A DNA stretch of 30,166 bases, taken from the IMG/VR virus record IMGVR_UViG_3300032315_000982, positions 1 to 30,166 of that record. One strand, 5' to 3'. Below, piece by piece: positions 1,515 through 27,701 of this stretch. Numbering within the stretch: position 1 is the first letter of the stretch; each line of letters starts with the position of its first letter. Below the pieces are notes generated by a model. That model made no database searches, was not told the DNA's origin, and worked only from the letters and a program-made list of their open reading frames with translations. Origin of the DNA: a virus. The position numbers and the translations under genes are program-made.

Positions 1515-1751
1515 ATGAAAACATTTGAACAGCTATCTATTAGATGCGACATTTTAGGCATCAGTATTTCGGAACTTTGCAGGCGCGCGGAAGTTGGGCG
1601 GCAAACTGTTGAAATTTGGAAAAATGCAGAACCGCAAACATTGATTATTTATTTTAAACTTATGAATGCTTTAAATGAATTAGAAAATGAATACAATACA
1701 GCTACGGCAATATCAATCGAAAAGCGTAAGCGACATAAGAGAGAGCTATAA
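1515..1751 (+). CDS. Small helix-turn-helix protein
   Basis: A 78-residue protein and the first gene of the rightward operon. Residues 14-36 (LGISISELCRRAEVGRQTVEIW) read as a Cro/XRE-like helix-turn-helix, with the second helix RQTVEIW as recognition helix. The C-terminus is basic (KRKRHKREL). It overlaps the next gene by 65 bases, so the two are translationally linked. It sits directly after the divergent promoter pair, the usual place for a regulator of the early switch, so it could bind the 1425-1514 gap. That role is inference. There is no dimerisation domain beyond the HTH. Confidence 0.6.
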   Translation: MKTFEQLSIRCDILGISISELCRRAEVGRQTVEIWKNAEPQTLIIYFKLMNALNELENEYNTATAISIEKRKRHKREL

Positions 1752-3198
1752 AAGCGGTAATAAAAAAGTGCTATTTGTGTTACCAACGGGCGGCGGAAAA
1801 ACTGAAACGTTTATTTATATGGCATTAGAAGCAATCGGAAAAGGTAAGCGTGTTTATTTCTTAGTGCATAAAAAAAATCTTGTAAATCAAATTTCAGAAC
1901 GTTGCAGGCGATACGGATTAAAGCATGGATTCATAGCAGGCAATCGACCAAAGCAGTATTATTTGCCAGCGCAAGTGTGCAGCGTTCAAAGTTTAAAAAA
2001 TAGGCTTAATGAAGTGCCGCAGCCTGACTTACTTATTATAGATGAAGCGCACCACGCAAACGCGGGAACATGGAAGGATATTTTAGATTTTTACGCTGAT
2101 TCTGTTTATGTTTTGGGCGTTACTGCTACACCGTGGCGCGGCGATGGACAAGGATTAGGCGATGTGTTTTCTGATTTGGTATTAGGGCCGTTACCTGCTG
2201 AGTTGGTTAAAATTGGTAACCTTGTGATGCCTGAATATTACAACTTTAAACCGTTGGCGGATTTTACTAAGATTAAGAAAGATAAAAACGGCGAATACAA
2301 AGCTGATGACCTATTTAAAGAAATGGATAAACCAGCTATAACAGGTAATGCAGTTGAAGAATACAAACGATTGGCACCGGGTGAACCTGCAATTTATAGC
2401 TGCGTAAATATTAAGCATGCTGATAATGTAGCAGCGGCGTTTAATGCAGCAGGATTTAAAGCGGTTTCTATAAATGGAAACTTTCATGAAAGCGAAGTAA
2501 AAGAAATTATATCGCGGTTCGCAATTCGCGATATTCAGATTCTAACGTTTTGCGATTTAATAAGCGAAGGTACAGATATACCAGCTGTATCAGTTGTTGG
2601 AATGTTACGCCGCACAATGTCGCTAAGTTTATATCTTCAGATTGTTGGCCGCGGATTAAGACCGATGCAAGGCAAAGACCGCTGTTTGATACTTGACCAC
2701 GTAGGAAATCAAAAATTACACGGACACCCACTAATGACGCGCGAATGGACATTGGAAGGGATGCAAAAGCGAAAACGAAAAGATACAGATGAACAGATTG
2801 ATAATGAATACAAAGACTGTACAGAATGCTTTAGAACTTATGAAAAAACACACGCTGCATGTCCTTATTGCGGTTTTGTTGAACTTGTAAAGGTTAGCGA
2901 AATTGAACAGGTTGCAGGCGTTGCTGTAAAAGATAAAACTACACTTGACGAACTATTGAAAGTTAAACGTACTGAGCAGGCAAAAAGCCGAACACTTGAA
3001 GATTTATGGCAGTTAAAAATTCAGCGAGGCCACAAAGATAAATGGGTTTATTTTGTATTTGAAAGCCGGGTTTTAAAAGATAAATGTTCTATTTCAGATA
3101 TAAACAATAAACACGGATTGAACGCTATAAATCGCGATGACTTAAAAGCTGCTGTAATGCGAAAATGGTATGAATTTTATAAAACTAAAAAACATTGA
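1687..3198 (+). CDS. SF2 DEAD/DEAH-box helicase with C-terminal zinc knuckle
   Basis: A 503-residue ATP-dependent helicase or translocase. Motifs are in order: LRQYQ near the N-terminus, Walker A PTGGGKT (33-39), DEAH (119-122), TAT (146-148), SEGTDIP (293-299) and QIVGRGLR (318-325). A four-cysteine knuckle follows (C378, C381, C392, C395; CTEC and CPYC) and then a basic C-terminal tail. The SSL2/RAD25-like layout is common in phage replication and recombination clusters. The start overlaps the upstream HTH gene and places the Q-like motif at residue 6, as expected. The next gene, also a helicase, begins five bases after its stop. Whether it acts in replication initiation, recombination or defence evasion cannot be told from sequence. 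Confidence 0.85.
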   Translation: MNTIQLRQYQSKSVSDIRESYKSGNKKVLFVLPTGGGKTETFIYMALEAIGKGKRVYFLVHKKNLVNQISERCRRYGLKHGFIAGNRPKQYYLPAQVCSVQSLKNRLNEVPQPDLLIIDEAHHANAGTWKDILDFYADSVYVLGVTATPWRGDGQGLGDVFSDLVLGPLPAELVKIGNLVMPEYYNFKPLADFTKIKKDKNGEYKADDLFKEMDKPAITGNAVEEYKRLAPGEPAIYSCVNIKHADNVAAAFNAAGFKAVSINGNFHESEVKEIISRFAIRDIQILTFCDLISEGTDIPAVSVVGMLRRTMSLSLYLQIVGRGLRPMQGKDRCLILDHVGNQKLHGHPLMTREWTLEGMQKRKRKDTDEQIDNEYKDCTECFRTYEKTHAACPYCGFVELVKVSEIEQVAGVAVKDKTTLDELLKVKRTEQAKSRTLEDLWQLKIQRGHKDKWVYFVFESRVLKDKCSISDINNKHGLNAINRDDLKAAVMRKWYEFYKTKKH

Positions 3199-3203
3199 AA
3201 ATT

Positions 3204-5369
3204 ATGACAAACTATTTAGAATTTTTAGAAAAGAAAAAAAAGCATTTTGTTTATTCAGGATTTGATATTGAAGATTCAGTATTAAATAAAAATATGTTTG
3301 ATTTTCAAAAGTTTATTGTTAAAAGAGCATTAAAAGCTGGAAAATATGCAATTTTTGCCGATTGTGGTTTAGGTAAAACTTTAATGCAACTTGAATGGGC
3401 TAATCAAGTATCTAAATACACAAATAAACCTGTTTTAATACTTGCTCCGCTTGCTGTTGTAGGTCAAACTTATCAGGAAGGTAAAAAGTTTGGTATTGAT
3501 ATGAATAATATTCATGTTCAAAATTATGAGCAATTAGATAATATTGATTGCAGTATTTATGGTGGTGTTGTATTAGATGAAAGTAGTATTTTAAAAAATT
3601 TTGAAGGCGCTACTAAAAAACAGATTTTAGATAACTTTTATAATACACCTTATAAATTAGCATGTACAGCAACGCCAAGTCCAAATGACCCTATGGAATT
3701 GGGGAACCATAGCGAATTTTTAAACATTATGACACGTAATGAAATGTTAGCTATGTATTTTATTCATGATGGTGGCGAAACATCAAAATGGAGAATTAAA
3801 GGGCATGCTACTAAATTATTTTATCAATTTGTTGGAACTTGGGCAATAATGCTAAATAAGCCTTCAGATATTGGATTTAATATTGAAGGTTATGAATTGC
3901 CTAAACTTAATATTACAGAAAATCAAATTAAAACGCCAAAAAGAGAAAATGGCAGTTTTTTTAATGATGCTATAATTTCTGCTACTAATTTTAATTCTGA
4001 ATTAAGACTTACAAAAATTGAGCGTTTAAATGAAGTAGTAAATATTATAAATTTAAAGCCAAATGAAAATTTTATAATTTGGATTAAGCAAAATGAAGAA
4101 GGCGAACTATTGAAAAAATTACTACCTGATGCAATTGAAGTAAAAGGCAGCGATACTAATGAATGGAAAAAAGAAAAACTACTTGGATTTGCAAATAATG
4201 AATTTAGAATTTTGATTACAAAAACTAAAATTGCAAGTTTTGGTATGAATTACCAGAATTGTAAAAATCAAATATTTGCAAGTTTAGATTTTAGTTTTGA
4301 AGGTTTATATCAGGCTATAAGAAGAAGTTATAGATTTGGTCAAAAAGATGAAGTTAATATTTATCTTATTACTACTGATACAATGTCAAACGTTAAACAA
4401 TCTATTGATACAAAACAAAAACAATTTGAAATTATGCAAAACGAAATGAATGAAGCTATAAATGAAAATTTAAAAGGCAATCAAATGATTCAAAATTATT
4501 TTGATATTGAATCTGAAAATAATGAATGGTATGATATTAAAAGAGGTGATTGTATTCAGTTAATAGAAAATGTTAAAAATGAAAGTGTTGGTTTTAGTGT
4601 TTTTAGTCCTCCATTTGCTGAATTGTATACATATTCAAATCATATTGAGGATATGGGCAATTCAAAAGATTATAATGAATTTTTGATTCAATTTAATTTT
4701 TTAATAAAAGAATTGCATAGAGTTTTAATTCAAGGTAGAAATGTAGCTGTACATTGTATGGATTTACCAATTCAAAAAGGCAAAGAAGGCTATATTGGAT
4801 TAAGAGATTTTAGTGGAATGATTTTAAAAAGTTTTGATGATGCAGGTTTTATTTATCATTCAAGAATAACTATTTGGAAAGATCCAGTTGTCGAAATGCA
4901 AAGAACTAAAGCATTAGGATTGCTTCATAAGCAAGTTAAAAAAGATAGTACAATGAGTAGAGTAGGTATTCCTGATTATGTAATGATTTTTAGAAAAGAT
5001 GGCAATAGAATTAATCCTGTTAATAATACTGATATTCCCGTTGATTTATGGCAAAAATATGCATCACCTGTTTGGATGGATATTGATTATGGTAATACAC
5101 TTCAAGGATATCGCAATGCAAGAGATACAAATGATGAAAAACATATTTGCCCTTTGCAATTAGATACTATTGAAAGATTGATTCATTTATACTCTAATAA
5201 AGGCGATATAATTTTTACACCTTTTATGGGCATTGGTTCTGAAATTTACCAAGCTATTAAAATGGACAGAAAAGGAATAGGATTTGAATTAAAAGAATCT
5301 TATTTTGATTTAGCTAAAAAGAATTTAAAATCTATTGTTGAACAAAAAAACCAACTAACTTTATTCTAA
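3204..5369 (+). CDS. SNF2-like helicase fused to N4/N6 DNA methyltransferase, ending in a clamp-binding motif
   Basis: A 721-residue fusion. The N-terminal half is an SF2/SNF2-type ATPase: Walker A ADCGLGKT (52-59), DESS (125-128), TATP (155-158) and a Q..R..R.GQ motif VI (369-380). The C-terminal part is an amino-methyltransferase with the catalytic motif SPPF (468-471) before the AdoMet motif FMGIGS (674-679), a permuted (beta-like) order; SPP[YF] is typical of N4-cytosine enzymes, although N6-adenine cannot be excluded. The last five residues, QLTLF (717-721), closely match the bacterial beta-clamp pentapeptide QL[SD]LF. I chose ATG 3204; an upstream in-frame TTG at 3195 would overlap the previous stop. 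The gene is markedly poorer in CG dinucleotides and uses AGA for arginine more than its neighbours, which suggests separate acquisition. It probably modifies phage DNA against host restriction. Confidence 0.85.
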   Translation: MTNYLEFLEKKKKHFVYSGFDIEDSVLNKNMFDFQKFIVKRALKAGKYAIFADCGLGKTLMQLEWANQVSKYTNKPVLILAPLAVVGQTYQEGKKFGIDMNNIHVQNYEQLDNIDCSIYGGVVLDESSILKNFEGATKKQILDNFYNTPYKLACTATPSPNDPMELGNHSEFLNIMTRNEMLAMYFIHDGGETSKWRIKGHATKLFYQFVGTWAIMLNKPSDIGFNIEGYELPKLNITENQIKTPKRENGSFFNDAIISATNFNSELRLTKIERLNEVVNIINLKPNENFIIWIKQNEEGELLKKLLPDAIEVKGSDTNEWKKEKLLGFANNEFRILITKTKIASFGMNYQNCKNQIFASLDFSFEGLYQAIRRSYRFGQKDEVNIYLITTDTMSNVKQSIDTKQKQFEIMQNEMNEAINENLKGNQMIQNYFDIESENNEWYDIKRGDCIQLIENVKNESVGFSVFSPPFAELYTYSNHIEDMGNSKDYNEFLIQFNFLIKELHRVLIQGRNVAVHCMDLPIQKGKEGYIGLRDFSGMILKSFDDAGFIYHSRITIWKDPVVEMQRTKALGLLHKQVKKDSTMSRVGIPDYVMIFRKDGNRINPVNNTDIPVDLWQKYASPVWMDIDYGNTLQGYRNARDTNDEKHICPLQLDTIERLIHLYSNKGDIIFTPFMGIGSEIYQAIKMDRKGIGFELKESYFDLAKKNLKSIVEQKNQLTLF

Positions 5370-5482
5370 CCTTACATCCTGTGTAGTTTATGTGGCGAAA
5401 AACAAAACTCAAAATACCGCTAATGTTTAGGGTTTTAAGCATCGTTCAATCCGATGCCGCAGGGTTTTAAAAAACAATTAAC
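5370..5482 (+). promoter_or_regulatory. Non-coding gap with direct repeats around a hairpin
   Basis: In an otherwise packed operon these 113 bases carry no ORF. AGGGTTTTAA occurs twice (5429-5438 and 5461-5470, 32 bases apart). Between the copies is a perfect 6-bp inverted repeat, GCATCG/CGATGC (5439-5444 and 5452-5457) with a 7-base loop. This could be an operator or an RNA hairpin controlling the 61-residue protein that follows. No TAnnTTTG promoter is present. Confidence 0.4.
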
Positions 5483-5668
5483 ATGATAGGAAAAACAGTA
5501 TTATACAAAGACTATGATGGTGAGATCATAGAAGGAATTATAAGGTACATAGGATTTCAAAACAAAACAAAAACTATAACTTGGTATAGTGTTGATTTTG
5601 GATTTAAACAGTTTTTAGTTCCTGAAAATGAAATTATTTTTACAAACAATCAACTAACATTATTCTAA
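5483..5668 (+). CDS. 61-residue protein ending in a sliding-clamp-binding motif
   Basis: I do not recognise the fold with certainty. Residues 1-50 alternate short hydrophobic and charged stretches (GKTVLYKDYDGEIIEGIIRY... KQFLVPENEIIF) and look like a small SH3/Tudor-like beta barrel. The last five residues are QLTLF, the same as the end of the upstream methyltransferase and close to the bacterial beta-clamp consensus QL[SD]LF. The final 18 bases, CAACTAACATTATTCTAA, match the end of the upstream gene with one mismatch, so the tail may have been copied. Its stop overlaps the next start (TAATG). A clamp-directed role is inference. Confidence 0.65.
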   Translation: MIGKTVLYKDYDGEIIEGIIRYIGFQNKTKTITWYSVDFGFKQFLVPENEIIFTNNQLTLF

Positions 5669-6141
5669 TGCTTAAAGACACAATTATAATATTGGCGTTG
5701 TTACTTGCCATTATTTACGCTGGCAGTAAACCCGAACCCGAAGTTATCGTAAAAACTATTTATATAACGCGCGACACATGCGATAATGATTCAGATTTTA
5801 TAAATGCCATTGGCGAAATTGAAACGCAAAATACCGACAGCTTAATAGGTGACAGCGGTCGTGCTTATGGCAGATATCAAATTCACGATGTTTGTGTTAC
5901 CGGGTCGGGCCTTAAAGACTTGCTAAATTACGAGCACAAAGACATGTTTGATTCAGTTAAAGCTGAGCGCGTGTTTTGGGCGGTTATGGGTATCAATTGC
6001 TATGTATACGCGCAAAAGTACGGCAAATATCCTGATTATGGCGAACTTGCACGTATGTGGAACGGCGGCCCGAATGGCTATCAATATGAAAGCACATTAA
6101 ATTACCTTAAAAAATTTGAACAATGCCACGAAAAAAATTAA
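5668..6141 (+). CDS. Membrane-anchored lysozyme/transglycosylase-like protein
   Basis: This 157-residue protein should act on peptidoglycan outside the cytoplasmic membrane. Residues 3-18 are a hydrophobic N-terminal anchor or uncleaved signal. The rest resembles the lysozyme-fold transglycosylases: AIGEIETQ with candidate catalytic Glu at 50 or 52, GRAYGRYQI (64-72) and LARMWNGGPNGY (127-138). It starts in a TAATG overlap with the previous gene and overlaps the next by 19 bases, so it is part of the early operon and not of a lysis cassette. It might assist lysis, or act early on the envelope. Catalytic activity is not certain because the Glu context is only loosely conserved. Confidence 0.6.
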   Translation: MLKDTIIILALLLAIIYAGSKPEPEVIVKTIYITRDTCDNDSDFINAIGEIETQNTDSLIGDSGRAYGRYQIHDVCVTGSGLKDLLNYEHKDMFDSVKAERVFWAVMGINCYVYAQKYGKYPDYGELARMWNGGPNGYQYESTLNYLKKFEQCHEKN

Positions 6142-25911: not shown

Positions 25912-27701
25912 TAGTTATTATCTTCGTCGTTATCGTCGTTATTATCTTCGTCGTTATCCGAGTTATCTGAATTATCTGAATTATTAAATTCATCAATATT
26001 AACTTCGGGAATTACATTACTTGCAACAGCATCAAAACGCGGTGCTAACTTTGCATCAATTGCATTTTTAATAGCTGTGTAATCATTATTCATAATATCA
26101 AAGCCTTCATCGTAATATAATTCAGTAACAGCATCAAAAACAAACTGAGCGCTAATTGCATCCTTTTCTGTTATTTGTCCAGATGCTAACAAATTTACGC
26201 GTTCATCTACCGTATAAAGATAAGCGCTGTTATACATTGCGCAAATTGTAGCTATTTGGCGCGCTATTGCATCAGAATTATAACGGCGGTCAACATAGCT
26301 TATATAACTTTCATAACGTATAGCTGTCGGCAAACCTTTTTGTGATAGTGCAAATTCTGCCATCAATTCTGTTTCGGTTTTAAGGTCAAAACTGATTGGC
26401 GCGTTAACCATTATCGCGCTTTCAGTATCCATAAATACAATGGCTTGAATAATACGCAAAACATCCTTATAACGCGCATAAACATCATCTGATATTTTAC
26501 CAACTTCAATATATTCAGGTTCGCGGTCTAATTCTTTTGCAACGCCCGATTGCGCAGCTTTTAAACTGCGGTTAATATTTAGCACTTGTTCGGCTTTGCC
26601 TAATGCCTCGGTTGCTACTTTGTTAGTTTCTTGAATAGTGCTAACATCAGGGCTATAATAACGTATTGGTTCTACTTGCTGTTTATCATTATCGCCAAAC
26701 TTAGAAGTTGTAGGGTTTAAGTTATAGGCTGCCAATGGCGTAATACTTAGCACTTTGCCGTGCCCGTGACAAGTTTTACAAGTTATGCTATTATCGTAGT
26801 TATTTGGGTCTGGTACGCGGCCCACACCATTACAACTGTTACAATCAACCCCTTCAACAAATTTAATAGGGAAGCATGTCGCAAGCATAACCGATTTATG
26901 CTGATTGTCAAAAATAGCAGCATCATTAAGATAAGGTATCGCAGGGCTAAAATCAGACTTATAAATTTTAAACGTATTGCCATAAGAATCATATTTAGGT
27001 ACAACGCGACCGCCTAAAGTAACCCACGGCATAATACCGCTATTGTGTTCATAGATAACTTCAAACATTGTTTTATCACCATACGCGCGGGCCTGAGCGT
27101 AAAACATATCGGTAACAATGTGATAGTATAGCGGGTTTTCAATACCTAAGGTAGCATATTTATTTTTTGATATGCCTTTATATATTAGAAGTCTGTATTC
27201 AGGGTCATTAAAAACAATCCTATCAGACTGTATTACTTTCATATCTACATTAACGCGCACGTTATCGCTTTCAATCCCTTCGCCTTTAGGTTCGATAAGC
27301 AAAACGGCGTTAGGGTCAAGTACCCGGTTCGGAATAAAAACAGAAAATACAAAAGACTGTAAAGTATTTTCGCCGAACTTTTCATTTTCGGCAAATTGCT
27401 GCATGTCCATATTTTCAAACCTAACAGAATGCTTTGCAGAACTTAACAGCCTATGCAATTCGGTTATTGCCTTAACAAGCGGCGATTCTGTTTTAGGCTG
27501 GTATGTATTTTTACGATAGTTTAATATCTGTTCATCTTCATTTGGAAATGCCTTATCTAATGCAGGCGGCACTTCACCGTAAAAGTGTGGCTTAATGCTT
27601 TCATAAATACGCTTCCAATCCGCTTTAAATGGGTGTACAGGCGGATTTAGTATTGTAGCATTTACAGTATTTAAAAATTCGTAAAACTGTTCTATGTTCA
27701 T
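25911..27701 (-). CDS. Portal protein with inserted zinc-finger-like region
   Basis: A 596-residue protein forming the dodecameric vertex through which DNA is packaged. Size, position before the Mu F-like gene, and an N-terminal wing rich in aromatic and acidic residues support the call. Inside the chain, CNSCNGVG (287-294) and CKTCHGHG (308-315) form a CxxCxGxG pair like the DnaJ zinc finger. The protein ends in an acidic low-complexity tail (NSDNSDNSDNDEDNN..., 574-596). It overlaps the next gene by one base (TAATG). The DnaJ-like pair is unusual in a portal. Confidence 0.8.
   Translation of the reverse strand: MNIEQFYEFLNTVNATILNPPVHPFKADWKRIYESIKPHFYGEVPPALDKAFPNEDEQILNYRKNTYQPKTESPLVKAITELHRLLSSAKHSVRFENMDMQQFAENEKFGENTLQSFVFSVFIPNRVLDPNAVLLIEPKGEGIESDNVRVNVDMKVIQSDRIVFNDPEYRLLIYKGISKNKYATLGIENPLYYHIVTDMFYAQARAYGDKTMFEVIYEHNSGIMPWVTLGGRVVPKYDSYGNTFKIYKSDFSPAIPYLNDAAIFDNQHKSVMLATCFPIKFVEGVDCNSCNGVGRVPDPNNYDNSITCKTCHGHGKVLSITPLAAYNLNPTTSKFGDNDKQQVEPIRYYSPDVSTIQETNKVATEALGKAEQVLNINRSLKAAQSGVAKELDREPEYIEVGKISDDVYARYKDVLRIIQAIVFMDTESAIMVNAPISFDLKTETELMAEFALSQKGLPTAIRYESYISYVDRRYNSDAIARQIATICAMYNSAYLYTVDERVNLLASGQITEKDAISAQFVFDAVTELYYDEGFDIMNNDYTAIKNAIDAKLAPRFDAVASNVIPEVNIDEFNNSDNSDNSDNDEDNNDDNDEDNN
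25914..25952 (-). repeat. Short tandem-like repeat encoding the portal's acidic tail
   Basis: GTTATTATCTTCGTC occurs exactly twice (25914-25928 and 25938-25952). A 9-base repeat encoding NSD follows just upstream in the gene. It gives the portal an Asp/Asn-rich C-terminus, and its copy number may vary between relatives. Confidence 0.8.

Follow-up and report, generated by a model that had tools for sequence, protein, structure and literature searches.

The window, the whole 30,166-nucleotide stretch of viral DNA analysed here, carries at 5483-5668 (+) a gene for a genuine small protein with a clamp tail, apparently undescribed but of a general kind already known. This 61-residue protein, p61, is predicted from AlphaFold2 and Foldseek to comprise an SH3/Tudor-like barrel (residues about 4-53) and a disordered tail ending in QLTLF. 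The initial annotation had offered two readings of it: a separate small clamp-binding protein, perhaps an inhibitor, or a cassette bounded by a short direct repeat. A conserved clamp-tailed gene stands from the first of these, while its inhibitor flavour is weak. At about even confidence, we propose that p61 is an accessory clamp-tethered adaptor, whose QLTLF tail would dock in the pocket of the host β clamp while its barrel brings a ligand to replicating phage DNA.

Scans of viral contigs recovered p61 at 87-95% identity in five loci (L001-L005). A search with a neighbouring gene, the VRR-nuclease, yielded 39 loci from this group of phages, and mapping of these revealed a second clade of 58-residue proteins, 43-45% identical to p61 (L030, L031, L032 and L044). 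A profile search confirmed that nine contigs in all carry relatives, with about 44% identity between the two clades. Within clades dN/dS is 0.03-0.23, indicating purifying selection, and p61 is a real gene. It is missing from most related phages and is thus dispensable. No family in Pfam, NCBIfam or PADLOC matched p61, and PHROGs gave only insignificant matches (E 0.04 and 0.07). Among annotated phages no relative was found, the 58-residue form returning only noise (E 0.2-5), and solved structures gave no sequence match at E below 1 (none below 1.6 in the PDB). The sole match in a genome contig (L007) was rejected as spurious: 39 residues matched inside an open reading frame read as an aldo-keto reductase.

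All ten aligned p61 sequences, from both clades, end in an unchanged QLTLF, so that the clamp peptide singled out by the initial annotation for comparison in distant homologues persists at about 44% identity. A QLTLF end that varies within the family, which the initial annotation had named as refuting its reading, is thus not what the relatives show. The eight columns before it contain no invariant position. When the 23 invariant columns are scattered at random, a fully invariant tail arises in 0.6% of cases, a figure that ignores relatedness. The underlying codons vary silently among members, for example CAA TTA ACA CTA TTC TAA and CAA CTA ACA CTA TTT TAG. Because the pentapeptide is invariant, the linker variable and the codon changes synonymous, the tail is kept as a peptide. 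The alignment also holds six invariant aromatic residues (Y8, Y22, F25, W34, Y35 and F39), noted with regard to a conceivable aromatic cage for a methylated ligand such as Tudor barrels have.

This peptide fits the clamp-binding consensus QL(S/D)LF, whose third position is tolerant (PMC11139829), and the QLxLF motif found at transposase C-termini (PMC4549789). Short motifs are easily over-read, and five residues could serve another purpose, such as protease recognition or binding of a phage protein by a hydrophobic C-terminal tag. We regard such a role as highly improbable, given the match to the consensus, the predicted flexibility at that position, the invariance across clades and the presence of the same type of motif on unrelated DNA-modifying enzymes of the same phages.

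AlphaFold2, run on the family alignment, modelled p61 as a barrel of five strands with a pLDDT of 76, which falls below 50 at residues 57-61. The second clade gave the same layout of barrel and tail, its residues 52-58 also falling below 50. The motif is thus predicted to sit in a flexible, accessible segment. Against the PDB, the best Foldseek matches of the p61 model were Tudor domains (probability 1.00, E 0.015, TM about 0.65-0.70), with weaker matches for the second-clade model (best E 0.33); in BFVD, many uncharacterised small phage proteins resemble it. The predicted SH3/Tudor-like barrel is similar in size to five-stranded barrels such as the Tudor domains of PHF1 and PHF19 and those phage proteins, a likeness at the level of predicted fold that is accompanied by no sequence family in Pfam, NCBIfam or PADLOC. 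The Foldseek E-values are modest and the alignment behind the model is shallow, which limits what the fold can say about a ligand of the barrel.

In the proposed mechanism, QLTLF, as the last five residues of a flexible tail, would fit into the canonical peptide pocket of the host's β sliding clamp, and the barrel would offer a second binding surface near replicating phage DNA. Clamp binding, the adaptor role and the existence of a barrel ligand are what we infer from these features. The arrangement resembles that of bacterial C-terminal QLxLF clamp binders such as Pol II and IS transposases, in which a consensus pentapeptide likewise follows a folded domain at a flexible C-terminus. Unlike these, the putative clamp binder p61 has just a small predicted barrel in place of a recognisable enzymatic domain. 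Its recruitment would resemble that expected for the clamp-tailed DNA-modifying enzymes encoded nearby.

A very small protein with a consensus-like motif could instead compete for the clamp, filling the DnaN peptide pocket so as to slow or stop host replication, or diverting the clamp during takeover. Precedents exist, as small proteins at this pocket, SocB of Caulobacter and RipA of Streptococcus pneumoniae, can be toxic (PMC12795458), and phage clamp inhibitors such as Twort Gp168 are known (PMC11139829). We nevertheless consider this reading unlikely. Searches confined to Pol A, Pol III α and the clamp, which gave matches in ten control genomes, gave none in ten related records of 31-46 kb, which may be fragments. 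The phage group therefore seems to use host replication proteins, including the clamp; an inhibitor would harm the phage's own replication, and poisoning the host clamp is improbable for a phage that itself needs it. The same type of tail also occurs on enzymes encoded in the same slot. While p61 shares with SocB and RipA a presumed target in the same pocket, it differs in lacking a stable antitoxin-like partner: the 76-residue gene that precedes it in relatives is gone from the window and is not adjacent to p61 in the 58-residue clade. Twort Gp168 and p61 are both phage proteins with the host clamp as presumed target, but Gp168 works in the DNA channel (PMC11139829), and the p61 motif is one for the canonical pocket, which argues against a Gp168-like mode. 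A toxin-antitoxin pair of p61 and the 76-residue gene was separately rejected for want of linkage, because the latter has disappeared from the window and does not neighbour p61 in L030-L032 and L044.

The gene lies in a hypervariable slot. Its left border is a ResIII-type helicase (1687-3198, +; PF04851, E 3e-27), found in every related locus that extends to this point. Its right border is a 157-residue gene (5668-6141, +), with no Pfam assignment above the cut-off, whose start codon overlaps the p61 stop (TAATG). Within the window's slot, p61 is preceded by a 724-residue fusion of an SNF2-type helicase and an N6/N4 DNA methyltransferase (3195-5369, +; PF01555, E 9e-19; PF00271, E 5e-7), which also ends in QLTLF. 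With a G+C content of 24-30% and absent from L001-L005, it is a low-G+C, replaceable cargo gene. Comparison of 41 loci in which the slot is complete, some of these loci being near-duplicates, showed it to be empty in L010, L020, L021, L022, L025 and L041, and to contain only a structured RNA element in, for example, L011, L016 and L017. Other loci hold methyltransferases, an HNH endonuclease with the 76-residue gene, a PD-(D/E)XK nuclease, or p61. Of the 13 loci that carry the HNH endonuclease gene, 9 also have p61, as against 1 of the 28 that lack it (loci not independent); a strict partnership with the HNH and 76-residue genes is unlikely, because p61 persists without either in the window. 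In L003, a PD-(D/E)XK nuclease (2925-4173) directly precedes the clamp-tailed slot methyltransferase, forming a possible restriction-modification pair.

Clamp-type tails recur on unrelated DNA-modifying enzymes of these phages, namely N6/N4 and D12 methyltransferases and a Mom-family protein. Most methyltransferase families of the slot end in clamp motifs: the N6/N4 enzymes in QLTLF, QLSLF, QQKLF or QTKLF, and the D12 enzyme in QLSFF. Fusions of 833-835 residues instead end in PTLFDCI, without a clamp-type tail. Across 628 called genes, 25 end in QxxLF-like motifs against 0.3 expected from the within-protein frequency, the 25 being related genes that belong to 6 of 122 families. A search limited to open-licence papers found none on phage methyltransferases with clamp-binding tails. 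Outside the slot, L029 encodes the Mom-family DNA modification protein (5456-6139; PF25680, E 3e-33) with a clamp-like QIELF end. A 51-residue protein ending in QITIFN/K (L004, 8962-9117; L033 and L034, 8873-9028) is another possible minimal clamp binder, with no clear sequence relation to p61.

The two QLTLF ends of the window are also alike as DNA. The tail and stop codons of the methyltransferase, CAACTAACTTTATTCTAA (5352-5369, +), and of p61, CAACTAACATTATTCTAA (5651-5668, +), match at 17 of 18 bases with a spacing of 299 bases, as the initial annotation had recorded, and the sole mismatch is a silent change in the Thr codon (ACT/ACA). Besides a tandem repeat near 25912, no other two 18-mers in the window lie within 400 bases of each other and differ by one base or none. 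In simulations with the phages' codon usage, one mismatch or none separates two QLTLF-stop ends in 5% of cases; the shared peptide accordingly explains most, though not all, of the likeness.

Homology to relatives points to how the arrangement arose. That with L002 runs from 5468 rightward, and that with L013, L024 and L023 extends through the RNA element and ends at 5473. Breakpoints and alignment mark 5468-5486 (+) as a scar, the 3' end of the 76-residue gene that precedes p61 in relatives, at the junction between the methyltransferase-element and p61 modules. The methyltransferase and RNA element occupy the place of the HNH and 76-residue genes, whose last bases remain before p61. Judged from these alignments, the simplest reading would make the methyltransferase a newcomer and p61 a resident. 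The suggested cassette of 299 bases bounded by direct repeats fails, since the methyltransferase reads as the newcomer and p61 as the resident; when relatives with and without the segment beside the methyltransferase were compared, p61 stood in L001-L005 with neither that gene nor the 18-mer upstream.

The two copies nevertheless coincide with breakpoints. Homology to L023 starts exactly at 5352 and homology to L009 exactly at 5651. Behind the stop codon of the D12 methyltransferase in L009 (3798-3820), L014 and L023 (3608-3640), in-frame clamp-tail codons have been left that read SQQKLF-stop or SQLTLF-stop. These leftovers are scars of an earlier slot occupant, either TCACAACAAAAACTATTCTAATG, which is almost the sequence that ends the L003 methyltransferase in QQKLF, or TCACAATTAACACTATTCTAACC, and those of L009/L014 and of L023 join different downstream DNA. 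Clamp-tail codons are thus recurrent recombination joints. At its left end the window encodes a Rad52-family annealing protein (126-659, −) beside a DUF3799 PD-(D/E)XK nuclease (669-1457, −), probably a phage recombination pair and a plausible source of short-homology exchange.

The repeated 18-mer might then reflect only the swapping of slot genes at their tail codons, and not two independent clamp tails. The exact homology starts at 5352 and 5651, the D12 scars with their differing downstream contexts, the Rad52-type protein with its nuclease, if these are the source of the exchange, and the 5% chance of so close a match given the peptide all speak for this. Such an account leaves unexplained why p61 retains the peptide under synonymous change, and why related methyltransferases of L024 and L029 and the Mom-family protein have tails of their own; moreover, p61 in L001-L005 lacks an upstream copy of the 18-mer. 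We judge it unlikely as an alternative to a clamp-binding tail: the joint is real, but probably does not account for the tail. Simple copying of QLTLF from the methyltransferase was discarded as the chief explanation, because the tails of nine relatives have codon variants of their own, without that methyltransferase upstream. A broader and more doubtful proposal combines both aspects. The region would be a replisome cargo slot, in which DNA-modifying genes of unrelated kinds and a minimal barrel adaptor are swapped at their tail codons by the phage's short-homology recombination, with the clamp-targeting sequence doubling as the exchange joint.

Between the methyltransferase and p61, the slot also contains an undescribed structured RNA element (5375-5467, +) of about 93 nt. 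The alignment gives it an outer 7-bp stem, a variable hairpin, a T-arm-like hairpin with a TTCRATC loop and a possible D-arm. We aligned 28 distinct copies from related phages, about 90-100 nt in size, which occur singly or as two in tandem after cargo genes (window, 5375-5467; L013, 3620-3822; L024, 3775-3867; L038, 3725-3926; L057, 6305-6397; L066, 2508-2610). In the outer stem and variable hairpin, 7 pairs have changed on both sides, and 98.4% of cells are paired against at most 53% in slid controls. Against the model the window copy reaches 101 bits, by construction. For the invariant core, RNAalifold prefers a long hairpin. The element is possibly tRNA-like in shape, as far as the alignment indicates; Rfam gave no match and ARAGORN called no tRNA in it. 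A coding reading (CSLCGEK...) was rejected and structure preferred, because most copies contain in-frame stops and the stems covary.

If it binds the clamp, p61 would be a very small phage protein consisting of one barrel and one clamp peptide, and as such a probe of clamp traffic. It would also help to test why clamp tails are attached to DNA modifiers, several methyltransferase families and Mom among them, in phages that rely on the host replisome. The slot, for its part, lends itself to an open comparison of how genes are replaced at short homologies that encode tails.
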